Shown piece by piece: positions 52,481-57,253 of a stretch of DNA of 57,360 nucleotides. The notes under the pieces are model-generated. The model worked only from the letters and a program-made list of their open reading frames with translations. It was not told the origin of the DNA and did no database searches. The first letter of the stretch is position 1, and every line of letters starts with the position of its first letter. Where the stretch lies: positions 1 to 57,360 of the forward strand of contig JAFUAD010000024.1 of NCBI GenBank assembly GCA_017460835.1, given 5' to 3'. The position numbers and the translations under genes were made by a program. Source of the stretch: Oscillospiraceae bacterium. GTDB taxonomy: Bacteria; Bacillota; Clostridia; Oscillospirales; Ruminococcaceae.

Positions 52481-52530
52481 TCTGATTTCCCGTGTGCTGC
52501 GGCATACGGCAAACAATAAGGAGTATTGCT

Positions 52531-55146
52531 ATGAAAGAATACCAGATTGTTGATACAGTGGATGCGCTGAAGGAGCTGCTCGCAAGAGTCCGGAAGGCGC
52601 AGGAGGAATTTTCCACATTCCCGCAGGAGAAGGTCGATGCGATCTTCCGTGCGGCGGCAATTGCCGCGAATCAGGCGCGGATCCCGCTCGCCAAAATGGC
52701 GGTCGAGGAGACCGGCATGGGCGTTATGGAGGATAAGGTCATCAAGAATCACTTTGCCTCCGAATATATCTACAATGCATACCGCGATACGAAAACCTGC
52801 GGCGTGATCGAGCGCAACGAGGCATTCGGCACCATGCGGATTGCAGAGCCGATCGGTGTCATCGCGGCGGTCATCCCGACCACGAACCCGACCTCTACCG
52901 CGATCTTCAAGACGCTGATTACGCTGAAAACGCGGAACGGCATCATCATTTCGCCGCACCCGCGCGCAAAGGAATCGACTATCGCGGCGACGAGAATTGT
53001 CGCGGAGGCAGCCTATGCCGCCGGCGCACCGGAGGGGCTGATCGGCTGGATCGACAAGCCGAGCCTTGACATGACCAACACCGTCATGAAGTATTCCGAC
53101 CTGATCCTCGCGACGGGCGGTCCGGGCATGGTGCATGCGGCATATTCCAGCGGCAAGCCGGCACTCGGCGTCGGCGCGGGCAATACCCCCGCGATCATCG
53201 ACGATTCCGCCGATATCACGCTTGCGGTCAACTCGATCATCCACTCCAAAACCTTCGATAACGGCATGATCTGCGCCTCCGAGCAGTCCACGATCGTCCT
53301 CGACAGCATCTATGACGCGGTCAAGGCGGAATTCACCGCGCGCGGCTGCTATTTCCTCAAGGGCGACGAGCTCGACAGGGTGCGGCAGACCATTATCATC
53401 AACGGCTCGCTGAATGCGAAGATCGTCGGACAGAGCGCCTATAAGATCGCGCAGCTCTCCGGCGTCGAGGTTCCGGAAACGGCGAAAATTCTGATCGGTG
53501 AGGTCGAAAATGTCGATATCACCGAGGAATTTGCACACGAAAAGCTCTCTCCGGTGCTCGCGATGTACCGCGCAAAGGACTTTGAGGAGGCCATGCAGAA
53601 GGCGGAGCGCCTGATCGCAGACGGCGGCTACGGCCACACCTCCTCGGTCTATCTGAATGCGGTCACCGAGCGCGCGAAGATCGACAAAATGGCGGCGCGC
53701 ATGAAAACCTGCCGCATCGTGGTCAATACCCCGTCCTCGCACGGCGGTATCGGCGACCTGTATAATTTCAATCTCGCGCCCTCTCTGACGCTGGGCTGCG
53801 GCTCGTGGGGCGGCAACTCCGTCAGCGAAAATGTCGGCGTCAAGCATCTGCTCAATATCAAAACCGTTGCAGAAAGGAGAGAGAATATGCTCTGGTTCCG
53901 TGCGCCGGAAAAGGTCTATATCAAGCAGGGCTGCCTGCCCGTTGCGCTCGATGAGCTGGGCAAGGTTCTCAATAAAAAGCGCGCGTTCATCGTGACCGAC
54001 AGCTTCCTTTTCAAGAACGGCTATACGAAGGCGATCACCGATAAGCTCGATGCGCTCGGCATCGTACACAGCACCTTCTTCGACGTCGCGCCGGATCCCT
54101 CGCTCGGCTCTGCGGTCAAGGGCACCGAGGCCATGACGGCCTTCGCGCCGGATGTGATCATCGCAGTCGGCGGCGGCTCGGCAATGGATGCCGCAAAGAT
54201 CATGTGGGTGATGTACGAGCATCCGGAGGTCGATTTCCTCGACATGGCGATGCGCTTCTCCGATATCCGCAAGCGCATCTACACCTTCCCGAAAATGGGC
54301 GAAAAGGCGTATTTCATCGCCGTTCCGACCTCTGCCGGCACCGGCTCCGAGGTCACGCCGTTTGCGGTCATCACCGATGAGAAATCCGGCGTCAAGTATC
54401 CGCTCGCGGACTATGAGCTGATGCCGAATATGGCGATTGTCGATCCGGATCTAATGAAAACCGCGCCGAAGAGCCTGACCTCCGCGTCCGGCATCGACGT
54501 CGCAACACACGCGCTGGAGGCGTATGCTTCCATGATGGCGACCGACTACACCGACGGGCTGGCGCTGCGCGCGCTGAAGCTGGTGTTTGAGTATCTCCCG
54601 CGCACCTATCAGAACGGCGTCAATGACCCGGAAGCATGGGAGAAAATGGCCAATGCCGCGACGATGGCGGGCATGGCATTCGCAAACGCATTCCTCGGCG
54701 TCTGCCACTCGATGGCGCACAAGCTCGGCGCCTTCCACCACATCCCGCACGGCGTCGCAAATGCGCTGATGCTGGAGCAGGTGCTGCGGTTCAATTCCGC
54801 AGAGGTTCCGCCGAAAATGGGCACCTTCCCGCAGTACAGCTATCCGCACACGCTCGCACGCTATGCGGAGATTGCCGATGCGCTGGGGCTCGGCGGCAGA
54901 ACCAATGAGAAGAAGCTCGAAGCGCTGATCAAAGCGCTCAATGATCTGAAGGCTGTGATCGGCATTCCGAACAGCATCCGCGAATGGGGCATCGACGAGG
55001 AGAAGTTCCTTGCGACGCTCGACGAAATGTCCGAGCACGCGTTCGACGATCAGTGCACCGGTGCAAATCCGCGCTATCCGCTGGTCGCTGAGATCAAGCA
55101 GATGTATCTCAACGCCTATTACGGCAAGAACAAGGAAACCGTGTAA
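52531..55146 (+). CDS. adhE: Bifunctional acetaldehyde/alcohol dehydrogenase AdhE
   Basis: 871 aa from the ATG at 52531 (AAGGAG upstream). The N-terminal CoA-acylating aldehyde dehydrogenase (~1-440) has the catalytic Cys in FDNGMICASEQS (~248). The linker ends KTVAERREN. The C-terminal iron-type alcohol dehydrogenase (~453-871) has GGGSAMDAAK (~546-555) and the Fe-binding His region CHSMAHKLGAFHHIPHG. It turns acetyl-CoA into ethanol in two NADH-dependent steps and in relatives forms long filaments (spirosomes). An AAAGGAGA box sits inside the linker with an in-frame ATG at 53887 (see separate entry). It is followed 15 nt later by the kinase-like gene. Confidence 0.97.
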   Translation: MKEYQIVDTVDALKELLARVRKAQEEFSTFPQEKVDAIFRAAAIAANQARIPLAKMAVEETGMGVMEDKVIKNHFASEYIYNAYRDTKTCGVIERNEAFGTMRIAEPIGVIAAVIPTTNPTSTAIFKTLITLKTRNGIIISPHPRAKESTIAATRIVAEAAYAAGAPEGLIGWIDKPSLDMTNTVMKYSDLILATGGPGMVHAAYSSGKPALGVGAGNTPAIIDDSADITLAVNSIIHSKTFDNGMICASEQSTIVLDSIYDAVKAEFTARGCYFLKGDELDRVRQTIIINGSLNAKIVGQSAYKIAQLSGVEVPETAKILIGEVENVDITEEFAHEKLSPVLAMYRAKDFEEAMQKAERLIADGGYGHTSSVYLNAVTERAKIDKMAARMKTCRIVVNTPSSHGGIGDLYNFNLAPSLTLGCGSWGGNSVSENVGVKHLLNIKTVAERRENMLWFRAPEKVYIKQGCLPVALDELGKVLNKKRAFIVTDSFLFKNGYTKAITDKLDALGIVHSTFFDVAPDPSLGSAVKGTEAMTAFAPDVIIAVGGGSAMDAAKIMWVMYEHPEVDFLDMAMRFSDIRKRIYTFPKMGEKAYFIAVPTSAGTGSEVTPFAVITDEKSGVKYPLADYELMPNMAIVDPDLMKTAPKSLTSASGIDVATHALEAYASMMATDYTDGLALRALKLVFEYLPRTYQNGVNDPEAWEKMANAATMAGMAFANAFLGVCHSMAHKLGAFHHIPHGVANALMLEQVLRFNSAEVPPKMGTFPQYSYPHTLARYAEIADALGLGGRTNEKKLEALIKALNDLKAVIGIPNSIREWGIDEEKFLATLDEMSEHAFDDQCTGANPRYPLVAEIKQMYLNAYYGKNKETV
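53873..53889 (+). promoter_or_regulatory. Internal in-frame ribosome binding site inside adhE
   Basis: AAAGGAGA (53873-53880), 6-nt spacer, ATG (53887-53889) in the adhE frame, at codon 453. Translation from here would give a 419-residue stand-alone iron-type alcohol dehydrogenase starting MLWFRAPEKVY. The sequence uses consecutive AGG AGA arginine codons, unlike the CGC/CGT preferred around it. Confidence 0.5.
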
Positions 55147-55161
55147 AAAGGGGGTTATCGT

Positions 55162-55920
55162 ATGACAGTACAGGAGGATCTGATTATTGCAAAGCGCCCG
55201 AACAAGGTGATCTACCGCGAGGGGGATACCGTTGTCAAGCTGTTCAATACGGATTATTCCAAGGCATCGGTGCTGAACGAGGCGCTCAATCAGGCGCGTG
55301 TCGAGGAGACCGATCTCAACATCCCGCGGATTCACGAGGTTTTCAAGGTTGACGGGCAGTGGGCGATCCGTTCGGATTTCATCGAGGGCAAGACCCTGCA
55401 GCAGCTCATGGATGAAAACCCCGACAAGAAGGACGAGTATCTGAAGCAGCTTGTCGAGCTGCAAATGCTGATTCACACCAAGCGTGCTCCGCTCCTGACC
55501 AAGCTCAAGGACAAGATGCACCGCAAGATCAGCGACAGCAAATTTGAGGCGACCGTTCGCTTCGAGCTGCACACCCGTCTCGAGGGTATGCCGAAGCACA
55601 AGAAGGTCTGCCACGGCGACTTCAACCCGTCCAATGTCATCATCACCCCGGACGGCACGCCGTTTATCATCGACTGGGCACACGCGACGCAGGGCAATGC
55701 CTCCGCGGATGTCGCCCGCACCTATCTGTACCTGACGCTCGAGGGCAAGGAGCAGCTCGCGAAGGAGTATCTCAAGCTGTTCTGCAAGATGAGCGACACG
55801 GCTTTGCAGTATGTGCAGAACTGGATGCCGATCGTCGCGGCATCGCAGTCCGTCAAGGAGAACAACCCCGAGGATTTCGAGATGCTCTCCCGCTGGGTCA
55901 ATGTGGTCGATTACGTCTGA
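55162..55920 (+). CDS. Aminoglycoside phosphotransferase/choline kinase-like protein (TIGR02172-like)
   Basis: 252 aa, ATG with AAGGGGG upstream. Protein-kinase-like fold: KVIYREGDTVVKLFN (P-loop equivalent and Lys), then the catalytic loop VCHGDFNPSNVIITPDG (HGD and Asn, ~149-165) and the metal motif FIIDWAHATQGNASADVA (~169-186). This is a complete active-site set. Related proteins are annotated as putative aminoglycoside phosphotransferases, but no resistance role is supported; small-molecule or sugar kinase activity is as likely. It lies 15 nt after adhE and ends before a strong terminator, so it belongs to the fermentation unit. Confidence 0.85.
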   Translation: MTVQEDLIIAKRPNKVIYREGDTVVKLFNTDYSKASVLNEALNQARVEETDLNIPRIHEVFKVDGQWAIRSDFIEGKTLQQLMDENPDKKDEYLKQLVELQMLIHTKRAPLLTKLKDKMHRKISDSKFEATVRFELHTRLEGMPKHKKVCHGDFNPSNVIITPDGTPFIIDWAHATQGNASADVARTYLYLTLEGKEQLAKEYLKLFCKMSDTALQYVQNWMPIVAASQSVKENNPEDFEMLSRWVNVVDYV

Positions 55921-56024: not shown

Positions 56025-56101
56025 ATAATATCAAAAATGAATGAAACCGCTCTTCACGGGGCATGCTACATGCAATACAACAGATGAAAGGCGGTTTTGT
56101 G

Positions 56102-57253
56102 ATGCAATGGATGACCGAGGAGACCGGCTGGCTGCTGCCTGAGGCGGCGCTTTCGGGAAGCGAGATGCTTCAGCCGGAGCGGCTGCTGCGGCTCGGCGCG
56201 GGACTGGTGCAGGCGGCGCCGGCATGCATGGTCGGCTGCGCGGAGGGCGGCTTTGCCCGCGCCTGTGCAATGCAGATATGCAGCGGGGCAGCGGCAGCCG
56301 GCGGCGATGCCGTCCTGATCCCGGAGTGTACGATCGGGGAGCTCGGCACGTCCTCTCTGCACACGCCCTGCGGCGTTCTGGCATACTGCGCGGACAACGG
56401 GCTCCGGCTGTTTTCGCGGGGGCTTCTGCCGCTGACCGCTGCACAGGAGCAGACCGTTCTGAACGGCGGGACAGAGCCCGGCATGCTCCGCGGCAGCGAA
56501 TACGGAAACATCACGGACGGTTCGGCACTGCGGCAATATTATGTCAACCGCCTGAAAGCGCGCCTGCCGGAGCACATGCCCGCCCGCGTTCATGCCGAAA
56601 CCGCGCAGCACCGCCTGCAATCGTTGCTTTCGCCGCTGCTGAGGGGAGGCCGCGGCGATGTGCTGACGCTTCAAATTTCTGCGGATGGCTGCCGCGCCTC
56701 GGTCTATTCGGAAAAGCACGGTTGGATTTTCTATGAAAAGCTGCTGCTCATGGTCGCGCTTGCCTATCTGGAGCAGGGCGAGGACGCCGCGCTGCCTTAC
56801 TGGCTCCCGCAGACCGCCGGAGCGCTCGGCAGCCGGTTCGGGCGGCGTGTGCTGCGCTTTGCCCCGCACCCCGACGGCGGCGATACCGAGGCGCGGGCGC
56901 TTGCCGTGCGGCAGGGCTTTGCGCTCGACGGTGCGCTGCTTTGTGCGGATTTCCTGCGCTTTCATGCGGAACGATACCGCGATTTACAGCGCTGGGCAGA
57001 TGCGATCCCGCCCTGTCATACGATCCGGCGCGTGCTTTCTGCATCCCGCGCAAGGGATGCGGCGGAGCGCTGTGCGCGCAGCATGCAGATTCGGAAAACG
57101 CCGGAGGGCATCCGCGCAGAGGACGCCCGCGGCACTGCGCTGCTGCACCCCGCCCGCAGCGGAAAGACCGCGGCGCTGCTGATCGAGGCGGCGAATATGG
57201 AGCTTGCGCAGGAGCTCGCCGCCGAGCTGACGCCGCCCCTCAGCGGAGAGTAA
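56102..57253 (+). CDS. Degenerate alpha-D-phosphohexomutase-like protein
   Basis: 383 aa from the ATG at 56102 (AAAGGCGG 8 nt upstream). Segments resemble phosphoglucomutase/phosphomannomutase domains I to III: GVLAYCADNGLRLFSRGLLPLTAAQEQTV in the position of S-H-N-P..N-G-x-K-x-F, then ISADGCRASVYSEKHGWIFYEKLLLM for the D-x-D-x-D-R metal loop, then a domain III-like end. The catalytic Ser, the three metal Asp residues and most of the phosphate loop are missing or replaced. The protein is probably not a mutase and may be regulatory. The family call rests on spacing and hydrophobic pattern only, so confidence is limited. Confidence 0.45.
   Translation: MQWMTEETGWLLPEAALSGSEMLQPERLLRLGAGLVQAAPACMVGCAEGGFARACAMQICSGAAAAGGDAVLIPECTIGELGTSSLHTPCGVLAYCADNGLRLFSRGLLPLTAAQEQTVLNGGTEPGMLRGSEYGNITDGSALRQYYVNRLKARLPEHMPARVHAETAQHRLQSLLSPLLRGGRGDVLTLQISADGCRASVYSEKHGWIFYEKLLLMVALAYLEQGEDAALPYWLPQTAGALGSRFGRRVLRFAPHPDGGDTEARALAVRQGFALDGALLCADFLRFHAERYRDLQRWADAIPPCHTIRRVLSASRARDAAERCARSMQIRKTPEGIRAEDARGTALLHPARSGKTAALLIEAANMELAQELAAELTPPLSGE

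Follow-up and report, generated by a model that had tools for sequence, protein, structure and literature searches.

A conserved Shine-Dalgarno-like box at the domain joint of clostridial adhE and a candidate internal start for a free alcohol dehydrogenase

The window analysed here is the whole 57,360-nucleotide stretch of contig JAFUAD010000024.1 from an Oscillospiraceae bacterium (assembly GCA_017460835.1). It carries an adhE gene downstream of the genes for pyruvate:ferredoxin oxidoreductase and for the gamma and beta subunits of oxaloacetate decarboxylase. The encoded protein matches the AdhE family NF010378 over its full length (1382 bits vs a cut-off of 951, residues 5 to 869), with the Pfam domains Aldedh at residues 12 to 402 and Fe-ADH at residues 459 to 639, and the internal methionine considered below is residue 453. 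A second adhE in the same genome is 79% identical and has the linker GAG AGG AGA GAG AAT ATG. Directly downstream of adhE lies an APH-family phosphotransferase gene (PF01636, window 55162-55920). In both Collinsella aerofaciens and Ruminococcus albus (pRUMAL01) adhE is likewise followed by an APH-like gene, which suggests that the adhE-APH pairing is conserved. The plasmid-borne adhE of R. albus is immediately preceded by the gene for a redox repressor, Rex (L189, 1-175). Window positions 56063-57253 hold an ORF of 396 aa for which Pfam gave no match. The features of the adhE locus, with Shine-Dalgarno abbreviated as SD, are as follows.

52531..55146, + strand: adhE, bifunctional acetaldehyde-CoA/alcohol dehydrogenase, 871 aa, 94.7 kDa (NF010378; Pfam Aldedh, Fe-ADH, ADH_Fe_C)
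52518..52523, + strand: main-start SD AAGGAG ahead of ATG 52531 (duplex -7.7 kcal/mol, model anti-SD tail)
53872..53889, + strand: linker codons GAA AGG AGA GAG AAT ATG, E448 to M453; the top 6-codon stretch for synonymous constraint begins at residue 449
53873..53880, + strand: internal SD-like box AAAGGAGA, 6 nt 5' of the internal ATG (-13.4 kcal/mol, model anti-SD tail); conserved
53881..53886, + strand: spacer GAGAAT between AAAGGAGA and ATG 53887
53887..55146, + strand: putative second product, the free Fe-ADH half, 419 aa, 46.0 kDa, colinear with free Fe-ADH profiles

The original prediction was that AAAGGAGA, a gap of 6 nt and ATG 53887 in the adhE frame stand together at the start of the Fe-ADH half, and that the AGG and AGA of the arginine pair are uncommon in this gene. 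The letters are present on re-reading, and the codon claim holds as well, AGG accounting for 2 and AGA for 4 of the 32 Arg codons of adhE and CGC for 18. The site combines an in-frame start codon with a suitably spaced SD, as expected of an internal translation start. All anti-SD energies given here were calculated with a model anti-SD tail that represents a general consensus and may not be the host's own. As a background we used 117 other ORFs with 330 codons or more, taken from the window and from the 80 loci of the linker-independent search described below; AGGAG precedes 5 of their 694 internal in-frame ATGs by 5-9 nt, none of the 694 attains the -13.4 kcal/mol of the ATG 53887 site, and their mean anti-SD energy is -2.7 kcal/mol. 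A single such site in one genome could be luck; it is the retention of these letters across the class that is remarkable.

Loss of the box by synonymous change was looked for in close relatives, and AGG AGA proved to be kept in both adhE copies of both other genomes of the genus, an outcome in favour of the original prediction. Linker-pattern searches, in which the amino acids were fixed and the Arg codons left free, gave 67 linkers in the family (63 of 197 genomes with a match), comprising 56 AGG AGA, 7 AGA AGG, 2 AGG CGT and 2 CGC CGT, and 113 in the class (107 of 391 genomes with a match), comprising 82 AGG AGA, 21 AGA AGG, 2 AGA AGA and 8 others. A linker-independent search that ranked loci by their likeness to the window adhE agrees: among the best 80 of 573 loci (79 non-duplicate) there are 55 AGG AGA and 14 AGA AGG linkers, the others being 4 AGG AGG, 3 CGG AGG and 3 AGA AGA. 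From these searches and a few other sources we aligned 151 adhE genes with an NMLW linker. Left out for lack of a long NMLW frame were 28 loci, namely 21 of a second AdhE clade together with L003 and L004 (unrelated paralogues), L040 (a frame-broken gene), L152, L191 (linker CGA CGG, -6.1), L193 (CGG AGA, -9.1) and L194. A 4-nt SD core is found in 141 of the 151 genes and is missing from 10, so that the SD is conserved at the nucleotide level among orthologues with the exception of these 10 genes and of the second clade.

Synonymous constraint was measured at 513 conserved columns by setting the codons found there against the overall usage of the gene in question. Arg449 ranks first of the 513 (AGG in 119 of 151 genes vs 14% expected) and Arg450 third (AGA in 116 of 147 vs 37% expected). 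The second rank belongs to Ser853, near the C-terminus (about window position 55087), where AGC or AGT is used in 123 of 132 genes, probably an inherited AGY set that is disjoint from the TCN codons. An earlier sample of 60 genes gave an AGG frequency of 0.88 at Arg449, compared with 0.02-0.17 for the 14 remaining conserved Arg columns. The preference is specific to the linker: AGG AGA makes up 112 of the 151 linkers, whereas of 65 Arg-Arg pairs elsewhere in these coding regions one is AGG AGA and none AGG AGG. It also persists across base compositions, AGG AGA linkers spanning GC3 values of 0.09-0.94 and occurring in 42 of the 55 genes with a GC3 of at least 0.6. These patterns place the constraint at the nucleotide level, which would also be expected if a regulator or nuclease bound the GGA-rich RNA, or if AGG, an uncommon codon (0.14 expected), were kept for slow decoding. 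We regard such other roles as highly improbable, and slow decoding has against it that CGG and CGA, which are rarer still (0.07 and 0.04 expected), are little used at Arg449 and Arg450.

The two arginine codons also change in concert. Linker pairs with one AGG and one AGA (AGG AGA 112, AGA AGG 18) far outnumber those with two of a kind (AGA AGA 4, AGG AGG 5; Fisher p about 1e-14, with kinship ignored). From a FastTree phylogeny computed with the linker columns left out, we drew 11 tree-independent pairs of genes that differ at Arg449 (AGG or AGA); Arg450 changed in the opposite direction in a mean of 9.2 of the 11 pairs, did not change in 1.8 and changed in the same direction in none (sign test, median p 0.0039). 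The mean anti-SD energy of the 151 genes is -11.9 kcal/mol vs -6.5 kcal/mol in synonymously randomised sets, whose means have an sd of 0.24. Because codon bias, a linker-specific AGG AGA, compensation and anti-SD energy all point the same way, we conclude that selection holds the SD-like box. The codon bias, the Arg-Arg control, the compensation and the GC3 range lend strong support to the earlier claim that selection acts on the nucleotides and not on the amino acids. That chance or codon bias should account for the box, Glu-Arg-Arg-Glu having some inherent resemblance to an SD, is hardly credible: the peptide alone does bring the expected energy well below the mean at the 694 other ATGs, but not to the observed value, and it predicts neither the near absence of AGG AGA from other Arg-Arg pairs nor the compensating swaps. 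When all 36 Arg pairs are placed in the window context, AGG AGA ranks second and AGA AGG third for anti-SD energy, the latter falling to only fifth of 36 where GAA follows, as it does in all 18 AGA AGG genes. The strongest pair, AGG AGG (rank 1 of 36), is rare at 5 of 151. Both points count against the initiation reading; the pattern fits a box kept at a useful rather than a maximal strength.

Beyond the class, a profile search covered 299 genomes from the phylum, of which 10 belong to the class itself, and found AdhE at the cut-off in 58; the linkers of 30 loci from this search were read; the linker-pattern search matched only 8 of the 299 genomes because the linkers of the second AdhE clade end in M[KQ]W. 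In this clade (21 loci, L168-L188) the methionine is present in 20 loci, the mean energy is -5.1 and a strong box occurs once. Since the methionine is kept also where the box is absent, its conservation is no evidence for a start. The one strong box, GAAGAGGAGGTATAATATG in L188 (-13.6), lies 20 nt before the linker Met and is perhaps an independent case. Two clostridial-type genes of the phylum lack the box (L166, Arg-Gln; L167, Arg-Lys). Outside the phylum, clostridial-type AdhE with the box was seen on contigs titled Alistipes (L132, Bacteroidota; AGG AGA) and Treponema (L112; AGG AGG), possibly through transfer or mis-binning. The ERRENM peptide occurs without AGG in Collinsella, where the pair is CGC CGC, and in a cyanobacterium, Kovacikia, where it is CGA CGG.

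The last two cases bear on the idea that the box is a relic. On this view an ALDH gene became fused to an ADH gene lying downstream of it to give AdhE, the linker being the translated former ribosome binding site kept by inertia, and the linker does read as box, spacer and start, with the internal Met falling on the first position of profiles for free Fe-ADHs. As an account of the present conservation we consider this very unlikely: inertia cannot hold synonymous third positions across so wide a GC3 range, leaves the repeated compensating swaps unexplained, and is at odds with Collinsella and the cyanobacterium having retained the peptide and not the codons. Weakened in this respect, a fusion of this kind could nevertheless be the source of the linker peptide.

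Several properties of the internal site were compared with those of other positions in adhE. The -11.9 kcal/mol mean at M453 is the strongest of the conserved Met columns, the next best of 22 having -6.6. At Asn452, immediately before the ATG, AAT reaches a frequency of 0.77, against at most 0.56 at any other of the 20 Asn columns, with AAT being favoured in any case at Asn columns that precede an A. The stretch from -14 to +3 is open (0.641 vs 0.455; in the 50 of 151 genes sampled, one of 55 other positions exceeds it) because the box itself is purine-rich, and tuning of openness by the flanks was not detected beyond synonymous randomisations (p 0.97). The local folding energy of the internal site is unexceptional (rank 24 of 71 in a sample of 60 genes), and in the window the mRNA folds more stably there than at the main start (-13.0 vs -6.5). 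A search for an internal promoter gave one sigma-70-like match on the + strand (53372-53399), and 3 matches on both strands together vs 1.3 expected. Gene fission at the linker Met was not found in 291 Clostridia genomes, 132 of them with a match; three frames of fewer than 500 aa that could have been fission products were dismissed, two lying at contig ends (G207, G449) and the third having its linker match at contig bases 17-40 (G456).

The main rival to initiation is that the box acts as an SD-like elongation pause at the domain boundary, giving the ALDH half time to fold without any second product. Intragenic pausing of this type has been proposed and its effect disputed (Mohammad et al. 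2016), both according to excerpts of PMC5100845, where it is also stated that coding regions are depleted of AGGAGG in 175 of 187 genomes; because of this depletion, an SD-like box that is kept is telling under either explanation. Pausing would suit the position of the box between the two AdhE domains, and the codon evidence fits it equally well, but it predicts neither the exact spacing to the ATG nor the AAT bias at Asn452. The second clade, with the same two domains and mostly no box, speaks against it too, and also limits the initiation reading. On balance we consider pausing unlikely.

Initiation at the box would give a protein with recognisable free-standing counterparts. As had been predicted, the internal start sits where the Fe-ADH half begins, since the 419-residue product aligns without offset to profiles of free-standing Fe-ADH enzymes in NCBIfam (residues 7-407 to positions 7-379 of TIGR02638, residue 23 onwards to position 23 of ErcA, and residue 26 onwards to position 26 of PRK10624). 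With 286 bits against a cut-off of 523, the Fe-ADH half is not itself a member of TIGR02638 (lactaldehyde reductase), and may nevertheless work like a free Fe-ADH. Isolated ADH domains have been solved (6scg/6sci and 3zdr); the E. coli domain, cloned from residue 451, the equivalent of the linker Met, was crystallised, and the source of 3zdr is presumably Geobacillus. A free ADH enzyme is plausible because of this colinearity and of the solved isolated domains.

Taken together, the site is conserved across Clostridia and is maintained by compensating synonymous changes, and we infer that ribosomes do initiate at ATG 53887. The best reading is that an in-frame internal start probably yields a candidate free alcohol dehydrogenase of 419 residues (46 kDa). 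The joint of adhE would then serve twice, as the peptide linker Glu-Arg-Arg-Glu-Asn-Met and, in the mRNA, as a ribosome binding site. Translation from 52531 would give the two-domain AdhE, and a fraction of the ribosomes, binding at 53873-53880 and starting at ATG 53887, would make the Fe-ADH half alone, which might add alcohol dehydrogenase activity and so shift the ratio of aldehyde to alcohol activity, as originally suggested, or join spirosomes as a partner or cap. A more far-reaching version, in which Clostridia supplement AdhE with a programmed dose of free ADH from the same mRNA, set by a box that avoids AGG AGG, to join or cap spirosomes or to clear leaked aldehyde, is put forward tentatively, and we would lean against it at present.

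In-frame internal starts are established for bacterial genes such as clpB, infB and cheA, where an intragenic SD and start likewise give an N-terminally shortened protein. The adhE start differs from these in standing exactly between two enzymes and in being predicted from sequence. For adhE itself, the Clostridium acetobutylicum gene reportedly gives AdhE and a separate butanol dehydrogenase domain (Thormann et al. 2002, J Bacteriol 184:1966). This case from the sol operon would resemble the proposed one in that one gene has two products, but it concerned one species, and the study is not known to have described conserved or compensating codons across the class. The AdhE proteins of E. coli and other Proteobacteria belong to the same family and share the linker Met; in contrast, their KRAENM (Lys-Arg-Ala-Glu-Asn-Met) linkers come without a strong box (E. 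coli -3.6, Vibrio -1.7, Azospirillum -5.5). FucO (TIGR02638) and ErcA (NF041833) are colinear from the internal Met but are encoded by separate genes. Internal-start peaks are described in start-trapped profiling of E. coli and S. pneumoniae in excerpts of PMC9426450. Within the limited literature searched we found no statement on internal or separate translation of adhE, and the excerpts of PMC3037857, PMC4845359, PMC12096837, PMC9426450 and PMC13009471 do not mention a separate AdhE product. An internal in-frame start is therefore known as a kind, and probably already for one adhE; the class-wide signature of compensating codons may be new as far as this literature goes.

In fermenting bacteria AdhE is one of the main enzymes that form ethanol and butanol; it is engineered for biofuel production and assembles into spirosome filaments. 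If the free alcohol dehydrogenase is made, single-product studies of clostridial AdhE would have overlooked a second enzyme, codon-optimised adhE constructs would silently drop it, and enzyme ratios, filament composition and the effects of ADH-domain mutations would need to be reinterpreted.
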